Of a DNA stretch of 64,000 nt, positions 39,154 through 43,320 are shown one piece after another. The position numbers and the translations under genes were made by a program. Source of the DNA: Tessaracoccus massiliensis (lineage in GTDB: Bacteria; Actinomycetota; Actinomycetes; Propionibacteriales; Propionibacteriaceae); the NCBI RefSeq assembly GCF_000826065.2, contig NZ_LN623541.1:138926-202925 (forward strand), written 5' to 3'. The notes under the pieces were generated by a model that was not told the DNA's origin, made no database searches, and was given only the letters and a program-made list of their open reading frames with translations. Each line of letters opens with the position of its first letter. Within the stretch, counting starts at the first letter, position 1.

Positions 39154-39986
39154 TGAAGCGGCCCCTGATCGTGGCGCTCGTCACGGTCCTGGTGGTCGCC
39201 GGGCTGGGGGTGGCCGGCTGGTTCGGCTACCGCTTCGTCCACGAGCGCATCACACCTGAGGTCTGTCACGTGCAGCTCTCCGACCACGGGCGCCTGCTGT
39301 CGCTGTCGCCGGCCCAGGCGCGCAACGCGTCCATCATCGTGGCGGCCTCCGTCGAGAGGGGGCTCCCGGAGCAGGCGGCGGTCATCGCCCTCGCCACCGC
39401 GTATCAGGAGTCCGGCCTGCGCAACCTGGATTACGGCGACCGTGACTCCCTCGGCCTCTTCCAGCAGCGTCCCTCGTACGGCTGGGGCACACCCGAGCAG
39501 TTGATGGACCCCTGGTACGCCTCGCACCGCTTCTACGAGGAACTGGTGAAGTTCACCGACTGGGAGACCACCGACGTCAACGACATCGCGCAGAAGGTGC
39601 AGCGCAGCGGCCACCCGGAGGCCTACCGCAAGCACGAGGGCAACTCCAGGGCCGTGGCGGCGACGCTGCGAGGGGCGAAGCCCGCATCTCTGGGCTGCGT
39701 GAGCTTCGAGGCGGACGCCAGCCCCGACAGCGCGGACCTCGACAAGGCGCTCGGGGCCTTCGGGGCCGCGCTCACCGTCGAGCGTACCGACGGAGGGCTG
39801 CGCATCACCGCCACGGACGAGGCCTCCGCCTGGGCGGCGGCCCACCACGTCGTCGCGAACTCCTACGCGGCGGCAGTGACGCGTGTGCAACTCGGGACCC
39901 ACGTCTGGGAGCCGGAGAGTCGCGATTGGATCGAGTCGGACAGCCGCGACTCGGGGCTCACGGTCCTGGTCACTTTCGCCGGTTGA
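39153..39986 (+). CDS. Membrane-anchored transglycosylase-like protein
   Basis: A 277-residue protein with an N-terminal membrane anchor (LIVALVTVLVVAGLGVAGWFG) and an extracellular domain containing ATAYQESGLRNLDYGDRDSLGLFQQRPSYGWG, the Glu/Gly-Leu-Phe-Gln pattern of lysozyme-like transglycosylases. The predicted catalytic Glu is in YQESG. It is coupled to dapD (TGATG). Substrate and role are unproven; peptidoglycan is likely. Confidence 0.78.
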   Translation: MKRPLIVALVTVLVVAGLGVAGWFGYRFVHERITPEVCHVQLSDHGRLLSLSPAQARNASIIVAASVERGLPEQAAVIALATAYQESGLRNLDYGDRDSLGLFQQRPSYGWGTPEQLMDPWYASHRFYEELVKFTDWETTDVNDIAQKVQRSGHPEAYRKHEGNSRAVAATLRGAKPASLGCVSFEADASPDSADLDKALGAFGAALTVERTDGGLRITATDEASAWAAAHHVVANSYAAAVTRVQLGTHVWEPESRDWIESDSRDSGLTVLVTFAG

Positions 39987-40035
39987 GATATTCCCGGTTC
40001 CGCCGGGGGCGAAACGGCGTGGACAGCGGTTCCCA

Positions 40036-40065
40036 CCGGCCTGTCCCCGTGGCAGGATCTCGGCC
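40036..40065 (+). promoter_or_regulatory. Promoter of the poly-Cys leader (-10 CAGGAT)
   Basis: CAGGAT (40053-40058) lies 7 nt before the leader ATG, and TTCCCA (40030-40035) is 17 bp upstream of it. The same AGGAT could instead serve as a weak ribosome site. The pattern matches other leaderless genes in this window. Confidence 0.45.
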
Positions 40066-40149
40066 ATGAGCTTGATCCCGGCTCGCGCCCGATTCTTCGG
40101 CCGCGCTTGTAGCGACATCCGTGGCTGTCGCTGCTGTTGTCTGCACTGA
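40066..40149 (+). CDS. Cysteine-rich leader peptide (candidate cysteine-responsive attenuator)
   Basis: A 27-residue ORF, MSLIPARARFFGRACSDIRG followed by CRCCCLH, with Cys at 15, 21, 23, 24 and 25. Three consecutive Cys codons just before the stop would stall ribosomes when Cys-tRNA is short. AGCGACA (40111-40117) can pair with TGTCGCT (40126-40132), so the Cys codons lie in a hairpin. It precedes sulfur-uptake genes by 125 nt. Poly-cysteine short ORFs ahead of sulfur genes act as attenuators in mycobacteria; the role here is inferred. Confidence 0.75.
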   Translation: MSLIPARARFFGRACSDIRGCRCCCLH

Positions 40150-40273
40150 CGCACAGACCCCCATCCGCACACATTCGTGCCGCACGCCGTCCGGGCGTTG
40201 ACCTTTTGCATCCCCTCTTCTCAGGGCCTGTCCAGCATGCCCATTTCCCATCCTCTTCTTCTGGAGTACCCCC
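40150..40273 (+). promoter_or_regulatory. C-rich leader region between poly-Cys ORF and tsuA (possible Rho site)
   Basis: By my count 54 C and 23 G in 124 nt, with runs such as CAGACCCCCATCCGCACACA and CCCATTTCCCATCCTC. No U-run terminator is visible. A C-rich, G-poor tract freed of ribosomes after early release is a typical Rho loading site. Confidence 0.5.
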
Positions 40274-41344
40274 ATGATCCTCACCGGTCTCGCCCTGGGC
40301 ATCGCCCTCGGATTCGTCTTTCAACGCGGCCGCTTCTGCGTCACAGGAGCCTTCCGCGACGTGTGGCTCAGCGGCTCGAAGCGCTGGCTGACCGCATTCC
40401 TCCTCGCCATCGTCGTACAGGCCGTACTGGTCCAGGGCCTGCTGGGCCAGGGCCTCATCACCGCAAAGGTGCCTGAGATCGCATGGCTCGCCGTCATCGG
40501 CGGCTCATTCCTGTTCGGCATCGGCATCGTGCTCGCCGGCGGCTGCGCCACCGGCACCTACTACCGCTCCGGCGAGGGCCTGATCGGCTCCTGGATCGCG
40601 CTGATCTTCTACGCCGGCTTCGCCTCGATCATGAAGTACGGCGCGCTCAAGCCGGTCACCGACGCGGCCCTGGCCCAGAAGTCCGGCCTCACCACCGTGC
40701 ACGAATCGCTCGGCATCAGCCCGTGGCTGCTGGTCGCTGTCCTCGCCGGCGTCACCGGCTGGCTGATCTGGCAGCAGCGCGTGGCCAAGCAGCCCGTGGC
40801 GCGCCTCGAGACGAAACGCTCCGGCTTCGCCCATCTCCTGCTCGAGCGTCCCTGGAGCCCCTACGCCTCCGCCATCGTCGTCGGGGTCCTGGCCGCTGTC
40901 GCCTACCCCCTGTCCAACGCCACCGGCCGCAACTCGGGCCTGGGCATCACCACGCCGTCGGCCAACATCGTCAACTTCCTCACCACCGGCGACGCCTCGC
41001 GCATCGACTGGGGCGTGCTGTTCGTGCTGGGCCTCATCCCCGGCTCCTACATCGCCGCGAAGCTGGCAGGCGAGTTCCGCCTCCGCGCCCCCGATGCCAA
41101 GACCACCATCCGCGCCATCGCGGGCGGCACCCTCATGGGCGTCGGCGCCGCGGTCGCCGGCGGCTGCACCATCGGCAACTCGCTGGTCCAGACCGCCCTG
41201 TTCAGCTACCAGGGCTGGGCCGCGTTCCTGTTCACCTTCCTCGGCGTGGGTGTGGCCGCGCGCTTCTTCATCCAGACCCACAAGCGCGCCGGCGCAACAC
41301 CCATCCAGGTCACCTCCCCCAGCACCCTCGTGCGTACCCACTGA
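40274..41344 (+). CDS. YeeE/YedE thiosulfate (sulfur) transporter, TsuA-like
   Basis: A 356-residue integral membrane protein with about nine to ten hydrophobic segments in two pseudo-repeats. Three conserved Cys motifs that relay thiosulfate in TsuA are present: GRFCVTG, AGGCATGT and AGGCTIGN. GGAG lies 9 nt before the ATG. Followed after 26 bp by a TusA-like gene, as in known TsuA/TsuB pairs. Selenium-linked YedE is the main alternative, but no SelD or SelA is in view. Confidence 0.9.
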   Translation: MILTGLALGIALGFVFQRGRFCVTGAFRDVWLSGSKRWLTAFLLAIVVQAVLVQGLLGQGLITAKVPEIAWLAVIGGSFLFGIGIVLAGGCATGTYYRSGEGLIGSWIALIFYAGFASIMKYGALKPVTDAALAQKSGLTTVHESLGISPWLLVAVLAGVTGWLIWQQRVAKQPVARLETKRSGFAHLLLERPWSPYASAIVVGVLAAVAYPLSNATGRNSGLGITTPSANIVNFLTTGDASRIDWGVLFVLGLIPGSYIAAKLAGEFRLRAPDAKTTIRAIAGGTLMGVGAAVAGGCTIGNSLVQTALFSYQGWAAFLFTFLGVGVAARFFIQTHKRAGATPIQVTSPSTLVRTH

Positions 41345-41370: not shown

Positions 41371-41697
41371 ATGAGCTTCTTCGACCGTCTCACCAAGCCC
41401 CTCCTCGGCCGCGCCGACGGCGGCCCCACCGCCACCGCCGTACTTGCCGACGACGCACCCGCAGGCGAGGCACGCCAGTACAAGCTGGACACCGTCGGCC
41501 AGGTCTGCCCGTTCCCCCTCGTCGAGGCGAAGCAGGCCATCAAGGGGCTCAAGGCCGGTGACGAGTTGATCATCGACTTCGACTGCACCCAGGCCACCGA
41601 CTCGATCCCCCACTGGGCCGCGGCCGCCGGCTACCCGGTGACCAACTTCCAGCAGGTGGGCGAGGCCTCCTGGACCATCACGGTCCAGAAGGCGTAG
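41371..41697 (+). CDS. TusA-family sulfurtransferase (TsuB-like)
   Basis: A 108-residue protein: an N-terminal extension of about 35 residues, then a TusA domain with the reactive motif CPFPLVEAKQAIKGL (CPxP). An AAAGGA site precedes the ATG at 41371. It likely accepts sulfur from the adjacent transporter's thiosulfate and passes it on as persulfide. Confidence 0.9.
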   Translation: MSFFDRLTKPLLGRADGGPTATAVLADDAPAGEARQYKLDTVGQVCPFPLVEAKQAIKGLKAGDELIIDFDCTQATDSIPHWAAAAGYPVTNFQQVGEASWTITVQKA

Positions 41698-41715
41698 CCG
41701 CCAGTCTGGTCTTAG

Positions 41716-41755
41716 GTGAAGGGTTTCGTACCGCAGTCGGTACCAAACCCTTCAC
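41716..41755. terminator. 17-bp stem-loop after the sulfur-uptake genes
   Basis: Arms 41716-41732 and 41739-41755 pair with one mismatch around a 6-nt loop. It follows the tusA-like stop by 18 nt and probably ends that transcript. Confidence 0.75.
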
Positions 41756-41953
41756 CACAGCACAACAGAGGCCAAAGAGTCCCCAGCCTCGGCAGCGCCC
41801 ACCCGCAGTGGAACAGGCGCCGAACCGTGGCGGCGACCATGCGCCACGCACCTCGGAGCTGCCACCGAGCGACCGCCTCCGCCATGGGCGGCGAAGGCCC
41901 CATCAAAAGACTGCGGGACCAAGTTTTCATCACGGTGTCAGAAACGCTGCAGA

Positions 41954-42018: not shown

Positions 42019-43320
42019 TCACCCGGCGGTGAGGAGCGTCATGCCGAGGAGGCTGAGGCCGCCGGCCACCAGCAGGAGCAGGACGTCGTGGAGATGGAAG
42101 CGGCGGTCCAACCGCCACAGCCCCGCCGCCCCGACGATGGTGGCCCAGCCGACGGTGGGGGCGTTGACGTCGGCGTTCCTGGCGATCGCCATGTTGGCGC
42201 GCAGCATCGACAGGCAGGTGGTGATCAACAGCCCGCAGATCACGGGCAGCACGTAGGCGCCCAGGCGACGCACGAACGCGGAGTTCGACACCTTCCCGTA
42301 GCCGCCCATGATCAGCATGGCGATCGCGGAGCAGGCCGCCACCGACAGCAGGAAGGTGGCCAGTGCGAACAGCAGGCCCAACTGCCAACCGCCGGACTGC
42401 AGCCCGTAGGAGTAGCCCAGCGCAGCGGCGACCTTGACCAGGATGGGCCCGGGCAGTGCGTTGGCCACGGGCACGGCCTGGCCGTAGAACTCGCTGCCTG
42501 GCACGATGCCGCTGGCCACGAAGAATCCGTCGGCCACGCCGACGTAGGCCTCGCCGCCGCCGAAGGAGGTGACGGTGGACAACCCGATCAGGCCGAGGAA
42601 ACCTGCGCCGCCCACGACGAACGAGGCCAACGTGACGGCGGCGACGACAACCGTGAAGGCGGCAGCAGACCACCATGCGGCCCGCGACGATGCTGTGGGC
42701 GGCGCTCCGGGAGCCGCCGGCGTCGAGGCCCTGCGCCGGGCCACGGACCAGGCCCCGATCACCACCAGTGTCACGAGGATGAGCTGGAGCGCGTCGAGTT
42801 GCGGCAGCGACGTTTCCCAGCGTTGCCCGAACAGTTCGCCCACCGCGGCGATGGCCTGGTCGGCACCGGTGGCCAGAAACGAGGCGAGCACCACGACGAC
42901 GTAGACGCGCAGCCTCTGTTTCCCGGCTCGCAACACCTTGGCGATGAACAGGGCGAGCAGCACGATGATGAAGGCGGCGATGCCGATGGCGGCGAACTCG
43001 ACGTAGCGGATGGCGCCGGCGCCGATGGCGTTGAATCCGGCCAGCAGGCCCACCGTGGCGAGCGTGCCGGGCAGTGAGACGGCGAACGCGGCCAGCAGCG
43101 AGCCCAGCCAGCCGTGGGATTCGGCTCCGGCGAGGGCGCCGAGCTTGACGGGCAGGGCCCCTGGCGTGATGTTGGCGATGAGGGTGTGCGTGCCGAAGGT
43201 GCGCTCGTCCAGCGCCTTGCCGACGAGTTCCTTCTCCATGACCGGAATGAGGGCTGCGCCACCGCCGAAGCCGATGGTGCCCACCTTGAGCATGGAGCCC
43301 AGGAGACCGGCAAGCTTCAC
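42019..43320 (-). CDS. Chromate transporter family protein (ChrA-like)
   Basis: A 433-residue inner-membrane protein made of two homologous halves, each starting with an FGGG motif (GTIGFGGGAALIPVMEKE and TVTSFGGGEAYVGVADGFF), the layout of long ChrA. Expected to export chromate or transport a related oxyanion; sulfate uptake is a possible alternative. It starts 4 bp after the dapC stop, so it may be an operon member. No chromate reductase or chrB regulator is adjacent. Confidence 0.85.
   Translation of the reverse strand: MKLAGLLGSMLKVGTIGFGGGAALIPVMEKELVGKALDERTFGTHTLIANITPGALPVKLGALAGAESHGWLGSLLAAFAVSLPGTLATVGLLAGFNAIGAGAIRYVEFAAIGIAAFIIVLLALFIAKVLRAGKQRLRVYVVVVLASFLATGADQAIAAVGELFGQRWETSLPQLDALQLILVTLVVIGAWSVARRRASTPAAPGAPPTASSRAAWWSAAAFTVVVAAVTLASFVVGGAGFLGLIGLSTVTSFGGGEAYVGVADGFFVASGIVPGSEFYGQAVPVANALPGPILVKVAAALGYSYGLQSGGWQLGLLFALATFLLSVAACSAIAMLIMGGYGKVSNSAFVRRLGAYVLPVICGLLITTCLSMLRANMAIARNADVNAPTVGWATIVGAAGLWRLDRRFHLHDVLLLLVAGGLSLLGMTLLTAG

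Follow-up and report, generated by a model that had tools for sequence, protein, structure and literature searches.

In the 64 kb stretch of Tessaracoccus massiliensis DNA that was analysed as a whole (the window), the thiosulfate uptake genes tsuA-tsuB are preceded by a cysteine-rich leader ORF, which very probably acts as a ribosome-mediated, cysteine-responsive attenuator of these genes. By this means sulfur uptake would most probably be switched on at cysteine shortage. The region contains a short ORF with a cluster of Cys codons, a hairpin and a spacer skewed towards C, and this arrangement is conserved with different peptides in related genomes (Table 1).

Table 1. Features of the leader region and of the tsuA-tsuB unit (positions in the window), and leader groups at the surveyed tsuA loci (groups drawn by eye).
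Feature	Position	Strand	Basis or remark
Putative -10 element CAGGAT	40053-40058	+	7 nt 5' of the leader ATG
Leader ORF, MSLIPARARFFGRACSDIRGCRCCCLH and stop	40066-40149	+	Translation; 27 codons
Hairpin over the first Cys codons	40109-40134, core 40111-40132	+	Inverted repeat and fold
Cys-Arg-Cys-Cys-Cys codons	40126-40140	+	Codon positions; presumed sensor of the cysteinyl-tRNA supply
C-rich, G-poor untranslated spacer	40150-40262	+	Presumed Rho-loading or regulatory stretch
Shine-Dalgarno-like GGAG of tsuA	40263-40266	+	Predicted pairing with 40253-40256
tsuA, YeeE-type thiosulfate importer	40274-41344	+	NF041049 E 1.7e-107; PF04143 E 2.7e-104
tsuB, YeeD/TusA-like partner	41371-41697	+	NF041048 E 1.2e-36; PF01206 E 7.8e-18
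Inverted repeat, 19-nt arms	41715-41756	+	3' of tsuB; presumed role, see text
Leader group, window genus			MSLIPARAR.FGRAC.D..GCRCC
Leader group, three genera			M.R.ADSRQPHT...GMCVAACPCCCRA
Leader group, genus g8			V.THRVW..RAGRSVMSSTMMMCSMCRCCC
Leader group, genus g2			MTTLG.IPFRTGRSTAARMSC...C
Leader group, Flaviflexus			MLSFLHTRTAPTAGTATVACMCCSMRCRMI
Leader group, L101			MFRLHLFSRRVIDLMYVCTCGCCS

Translation and codon positions bore out the original prediction, in which an ORF of this length with five Cys and the end Arg-Cys-Cys-Cys-Leu-His had been described. The Cys codons are located at 40108, 40126, 40132, 40135 and 40138, and the leader lies 124 nt 5' of tsuA-tsuB. As expected of an attenuator, codons for the end product of the pathway are clustered in this short ORF. 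Among the short ORFs of 9-45 codons in the window (308 on the plus and 280 on the minus strand), only the leader ORF and one minus-strand ORF have four or more Cys among their final 12 codons. GC-rich DNA often contains TGY-rich stretches and the 3.2 Mb genome, in which the window is part of contig C15, contains 32 CxCCC matches, both of which would be in agreement with a Cys-rich frame that has no function. However, among the 30 inspected matches only the one in the window lies at most 10 codons from the end of an ORF that is 9 codons long or longer, and no second leader-like sequence was found at these 30 loci. A scan of the same genome with the leader family NF042934 gave five weak matches, all of them below the cut-off, and such matches were likewise obtained in 10 of 14 control genomes. 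The cysK gene is located elsewhere in the genome; no comparable leader was seen there, and the 600 nt 5' of it (L104) contain no short ORF with at least two Cys or a DL motif.

A search for Cys-rich ORFs 5' of YeeE-type genes in relatives, as proposed with the original prediction, was carried out on 53 tsuA loci and the 450 nt 5' of each (24 loci of the window's family, 26 named loci and three class loci), which were obtained from named genomes, 198 family genomes and 394 class genomes. Short ORFs (9-45 codons) whose final 12 codons include four or more for Cys were counted up to 450 nt upstream of tsuA, and the expected counts were derived from 20 dinucleotide shuffles per region. Such ORFs were found at 18 of the 53 loci, which are not independent events because the tsuA loci are related, compared with 1 of 53 on the antisense strand and 0.05 expected from the shuffles. 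With a threshold of three Cys, 18 of the 53 loci, one antisense case and 1.60 expected cases were obtained. Within the window's family, 16 of the 24 loci carry a poly-Cys leader (antisense 0/24, expected 0.06), and a looser, post hoc look increased this number to 17 by addition of L075. When the RxHVDL leaders described below are included, 22 of the 24 family loci have a leader after the looser, post hoc look, the two without either type being L082 and L089. Neither leader type was found at 28 of the 53 loci even after this looser look, 26 of these being outside the family. Here, a poly-Cys leader was found in L025 and an RxHVDL leader in L037 among the 26 named loci, and a poly-Cys leader in L101 among the three class loci, indicating that the leader habit is strong in the family and that the Arthrobacter, Kocuria and Agrococcus loci of this survey seldom share it. 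An order-wide search, in which 23 of 391 genomes matched, added no tsuA outside the family.

The 24 family loci remained from 29 family genomes with a match after omission of G006/L009, where the 5' end of tsuA is lost, and of the weak partial matches in G127, G108, G100 and G097 (L091-L094); they include L089 and L090, in which the tsuA matches are fragmented, while L081, a second contig of G131, was counted through L095. The named loci L010-L015, L021 and L038 were dropped as duplicates of L003, L076, L078, L077, L079, L080, L081 and L095, respectively, because the leader peptide, the offset or another feature of the record agrees, and the other 26 were kept. Several named records (Propioniciclava flava, Tessaracoccus sp. 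SD287 and several 'Propionibacterium sp.' MAGs) apparently belong to the same family as the window. Where the tsuA match starts inside the gene (e.g. L022, L036 and L102), the 450 nt taken as upstream DNA hold some coding DNA. Cys-containing frames in L017 and L019 were left uncounted. In L042 (a Micrococcaceae MAG, about 2450-2520), a frame ending in ACVCCCRV overlaps the presumed start codon of tsuA; it is possibly a chance frame, because TGTTGCTGT corresponds to N-terminal codons of tsuA in another frame.

The leader peptides fall by eye into at least six groups that have only the Cys-rich tail in common, and different Cys-rich leaders occupy the same position in other genera. The original prediction had been made to depend on a Cys tail that close relatives retain, and this was observed: the two nearest relatives (L003/L010 and L004) have kept the frame and five Cys with mostly synonymous changes, and the Cys positions differ in part among the three peptides of the window clade. 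In pairwise comparisons of the first 24 codons of the window and these two relatives, the ratios of synonymous to non-synonymous changed codons were 7/2, 7/3 and 5/3 in the leader frame, and 0/8, 3/6, 1/10, 2/9, 0/8 and 3/5 in the two alternative frames. Judged by this pattern, the window leader appears to evolve as a coding frame. Together with the excess over the shuffled expectation, the coding-like substitutions leave next to no probability for a chance ORF, and the Cys-rich frame is real.

DNA matching the N-terminal part of the window leader with up to three mismatches was found in 5 of 197 family genomes, three of these matches being known leaders and the others L120 and L121. The DNA pattern for CPCCC is present in 7 of the 197 genomes, in four of them 5' of tsuA; the other matches are located before a tsuB remnant and cysK (L111), at a contig end (L115) and in a sequence that is not leader-like (L116). 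The genome of L111 (G125) is not among the 29 genomes with a tsuA match and has the same leader type, as if the sensor had been retained after loss of the importer, or as if the locus were misassembled.

Stalling might also involve the nascent peptide, which would join the Cys codons in arresting the ribosome and would sense more than the supply of cysteinyl-tRNA. Retention of MSLIPARAR and FGRAC ahead of the Cys cluster in three relatives, with mainly synonymous changes, would fit such an arrest peptide, as would the replacement of poly-Cys leaders by single-Cys RxHVDL leaders at the same operon. However, selection acting at the DNA or RNA level could imitate conservation of the peptide, and the likeness between clades is by eye confined to the Cys-rich tail, so that we regard a contribution of the nascent chain as quite improbable.

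The second leader type, RxHVDLxRV...C, was detected by the fixed scan at four of the 24 family loci (L006, L007, L008 and L080). The underlying pattern H[VI][DE][LM] is present in 6 of the 53 upstream regions (the same four, L037 and L027), with 0/53 on the antisense strand and 0.10 expected; L027 has no leader-family match and was not counted as a leader. Matches to NF042934, which is annotated as 'putative leader peptide', exceeded the 27-bit cut-off in L080 (29.6 bits) and L007 (27.4 bits), and were below it in L008 (24.3 bits), L006 (24.1 bits), L037 (19.9 bits) and L005 (20.0 bits), with E values of 1.7e-5 to 4e-4. The L005 leader, MNRSTFGPGVVTGFLLTVRLHLDLQRTAAMTCRF, was found by hand in the looser post hoc look. 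At all six of these loci, the NF042934-type leader (RxHVDLxRVxxxxC) occupies the position before tsuA that a poly-Cys leader has elsewhere; it contains a single Cys and an HVDL core that is missing from the window peptide. Outside the family, L101 has an RRxIDL core, a CTCGCC tail and a weak match to NF042936 (E 0.0023). The window peptide gave no match to NF042933, NF042934 or NF042936 at E values up to 10, and membership in the named Cys-leader families was likewise rejected for seven poly-Cys or Cys-containing peptides from relatives, the g8 peptide and the L075 peptide, which gave no match.

Short Cys-rich peptides can have a function. The lack of an Rfam, NCBIfam or Pfam family for the leader element would also fit a small peptide that is itself the product, for example one that is modified, binds metal or has a redox function, and that is placed before tsuA by accident. 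Given the different peptides at the same place across clades, the L111 leader that precedes cysK without tsuA, and scans of leader, tsuA, tsuB and the upstream gene that named no RiPP family for any of these four, this explanation is very improbable.

The tsuA/tusA-like genes of the original prediction were recovered by profile matches to NF041049/PF04143 and NF041048/PF01206. The NF041049 and NF041048 scores are below the curated NCBI cut-offs, and tsuA and tsuB are therefore named by family. For E. coli, PMC11073785 describes YeeD as an essential partner in thiosulfate uptake by YeeE. The inverted repeat 3' of tsuB probably marks the end of the two-gene unit. It has no obvious T run and is flanked by tsuB and a convergent minus-strand ORF (42019-43320), which, from reading of the ORF alone, resembles a chromate transporter. 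In other loci tsuB is followed by cysK (L011/L076, L074, L021/L081 and the g8 loci L083-L086 and L090), and the cysK proteins of L011, L085 and L111 were assigned to TIGR01139 (cysteine synthase A) above the cut-off; cysK is absent from the fetched flanks of the remaining inspected tsuA loci including the window. Two loci are of unusual composition. L009 (genome G006) has a damaged tsuA, with a match from residue 132 only and two internal stops, and an adjoining full-length tsuB match, and tsuA of L075 (genome G122) is separated from its poly-Cys leader by a tsuB-like gene and is followed by a second tsuB. PF01507 (PAPS reductase and kin) had no match in the window's genome and matched in all 14 control genomes, which suggests that the usual route of sulfate reduction is not used and that thiosulfate uptake is important in this organism.

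For the start of the leader, a leaderless mode as named in the original prediction is plausible, since a CAGNNT element is found at the same distance from the ATG in the window and in the two nearest relatives (L010 and L004). A sigma-70 consensus scan gave no promoter match, and the leaders of other clades have by eye Shine-Dalgarno-like starts, so that a leaderless start is not general.

The hairpin over the Cys codons was located correctly in the original prediction, the arms of the inverted repeat being 40111-40120 and 40123-40132. The 34-nt stretch 40105-40138 folds with -14.1 kcal/mol (z -2.8), which was equalled by 1 of 200 shuffles; the stability of the whole 150-nt leader is not unusual (z -1.1). 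Among the three sequences of the window clade, 93.3% of the cells are paired, which is not beyond shuffles. A second clade (eight sequences, alignment A1) has a hairpin just 5' of the Cys cluster with 94.7% of the cells paired and six cells with both-sided changes compared with 2.1 in shuffles; paired cells, both-sided cells and covariation score were each above all 500 shuffles, and shifted versions of the hairpin reached at most 59.6% pairing. Two pairs of this hairpin have both-sided changes, a number that was reached by 182 of the 500 shuffles, and L077 of the same alignment is without most of the hairpin. The leader hairpin of genus g8 shows 95% pairing and no covariation. Mutually exclusive RNA structures conserved across clades were not found in the alignments of three clades. 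The hairpin may serve as a pause or timing element.

Between the leader and the Shine-Dalgarno sequence of tsuA, the spacer of 113 nt contains 49 C and 20 G. This C/G ratio of 2.45 is reached by 3 of the 12,778 windows of the same length on both strands of the 64 kb (0.02%), which may include the spacer itself. Over 40150-40273, the 54 C and 23 G counted in the original prediction were exact. No intrinsic terminator was found in the spacer, the two hits of the scan being the leader hairpin and a site inside tsuA; the leader-internal hairpin is thus the only terminator-like hit between the upstream gene and the tsuA start. The fold of the spacer is not better than that of shuffles (z -0.4), and the alternative terminator and antiterminator structures with an intrinsic terminator that characterize ribosome-mediated attenuators in general were not found. 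An Rfam search of 39900-40400 at E values up to 1 returned no family, and on this ground a riboswitch was ruled out.

At the surveyed loci, C/G was measured over 110 nt ending 12 nt 5' of the tsuA match. Median ratios were 1.90 for the 18 poly-Cys loci, 1.95 for five RxHVDL loci and 1.19 for the 30 others, with a Mann-Whitney p of 5e-5 for poly-Cys loci against the others, a comparison that is confounded with clade. After removal of L005 and L075, the remaining 28 others had a median of 1.14 (p 4e-5), with the same confounding by clade. In part of genus g8 the excess of C over G is weak or absent (L090 0.85, L085 1.22, L083 1.32). A C-rich, G-poor untranslated stretch and a rho gene, the two features looked for in a Rho-dependent attenuator, are both present in the window's genome.

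A Cys cluster that is kept in different peptides, close to the stop of short ORFs 5' of sulfur genes, points to ribosome pausing at scarce cysteinyl-tRNA. In the mechanism that we propose, translation of the leader, its response to cysteine and the output step are inferred from the DNA. The transcript would start at or near the leader ATG, as is probable, and ribosomes would load on the leader immediately. With ample cysteinyl-tRNA, the ribosome would pass Cys-Arg-Cys-Cys-Cys and leave at the UGA; the C-rich, G-poor spacer would then be naked, and transcription would end there or tsuA would be poorly translated, resulting in little importer. With scarce cysteinyl-tRNA, the ribosome would stall on the Cys codons and open the overlapping hairpin, which would alter the fate of the downstream RNA and allow tsuA-tsuB to be expressed.

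For the output step, Rho-type termination in the C-rich spacer is tentatively taken as the likeliest route, translational control at the Shine-Dalgarno sequence is rather less likely, and another route is somewhat less likely again. The reading in terms of Rho is based on the rho gene, on the lack of an intrinsic terminator in the window spacer and on the higher C/G at leader loci. By our reckoning, a ribosome stalled on the Cys codons would shield no more than the first few of the 113 spacer nucleotides, so that induction is not explained by simple masking of a Rho site; under Rho-type termination, induction would require a refold or coupling between ribosome and polymerase.

In translational attenuation, the leader region would pair with the ribosome-binding site of tsuA and a ribosome paused at Cys codons would free it without premature termination. 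This is the mode given for the cysteine leaders of M. smegmatis in PMC13236596, where Canestrari 2020 is cited, and the Shine-Dalgarno sequence of tsuA in the window is indeed predicted to be mostly paired (accessibility 0.10). In folds that include the leader ORF, however, its main partner (0.56-0.58) is the adjacent pyrimidine tract 40253-40256 rather than the leader ORF. The effect of a ribosome positioned at the Cys codons or at the stop was followed in a crude folding model of 17 of the 18 poly-Cys leaders (all except L088). The predicted accessibility of the Shine-Dalgarno sequence of tsuA was clearly changed in one of the 17 leaders (L086); small shifts were obtained in L083, L087 and L090, no clear change in 16 of 17 and none at all in the window. 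Release of the Shine-Dalgarno sequence by a paused ribosome was rejected on this basis, and translational attenuation in this form is considered unlikely.

A wider reading is that family thiosulfate-import operons carry a replaceable cysteine sensor: poly-Cys leaders of the MSLIP..., ...VAACPCCC and ...MMCSMCRCCC kinds and single-Cys RxHVDL leaders would be exchanged at one operon, and the nascent peptide, as read from the conserved N-terminal halves, together with scarce cysteinyl-tRNA would set a stall that lifts Rho-type termination. In this full form it is improbable.

Among known systems, the closest are the mycobacterial leaderless poly-Cys short ORFs (Ms5788A, Ms4527A), which likewise have clustered terminal Cys codons and lie 5' of sulfur or cysteine genes; a leaderless start is plausible for the window leader. 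Papers citing Canestrari 2020 report that such leaders give cysteine-responsive regulation in M. smegmatis. Unlike the Ms5788A and Ms4527A families, the window peptide is without a match to NF042933, NF042934 or NF042936 and its target is a thiosulfate importer, and in contrast to the mycobacterial ORFs several relatives of the window have by eye Shine-Dalgarno-like leader starts. The likeness to mycobacterial attenuators drawn in the original prediction therefore stands for the kind of leader and not for membership in the named families.

P. acnes is a member of Propionibacteriaceae. In 2005, Cys leaders were predicted for the cys operon of Mycobacterium and P. acnes and for the cbs gene of B. 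longum; no terminator was noted, and Rho with pyrimidine-rich motifs was suggested (PMC1262725, Seliverstov 2005). As far as this text goes, the P. acnes and B. longum leaders resemble that of the window in runs of Cys codons near the stop, in the lack of a terminator hairpin and in a pyrimidine-rich spacer; the text available makes no mention of thiosulfate uptake, and identity with the tsuA-tsuB-cysK loci of g8 cannot be read from it. In Rhodobacterales, the uORFC-8-2 motif 5' of cysS (PMC8632094) is described with tandem Cys codons in a short ORF within a stem, as in the window; it differs in its intrinsic-terminator stem with a U run, its cysteinyl-tRNA synthetase target and its alpha-proteobacterial origin. 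In S. lividans, metL 5' of metNIQ, which is termed methionine-dependent, ends in ARCMCRRMCAF with three Cys (PMC8079986) and could be a Cys/Met sensor like the g8 leaders, whose tails mix Met and Cys.

A search of titles and abstract openings, with subscription papers mostly outside its scope, found no description of a leader for thiosulfate uptake. The original prediction had put forward the sulfur-import version as not seen described; this is retained for the thiosulfate-import target and narrowed because the 2005 study (PMC1262725) had already predicted poly-Cys leaders for the cys operon of P. acnes and had proposed Rho. The kind of leader is known, from mycobacteria and by prediction from P. 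acnes; new are its use for thiosulfate import and the replacement of one leader type by another at the same operon.

Taken together, the leader would extend cysteine attenuation from biosynthetic operons to the import of an inorganic source of sulfur. The organism may depend on reduced sulfur, given the lack of a PAPS-reductase family match. Genes annotated as 'putative leader peptide' 5' of tsuA are also flagged as likely sulfur sensors. The family offers a natural series of leaders at one operon, in which it can be asked what a minimal attenuator needs with respect to codons, peptide, hairpin and C-rich spacer.
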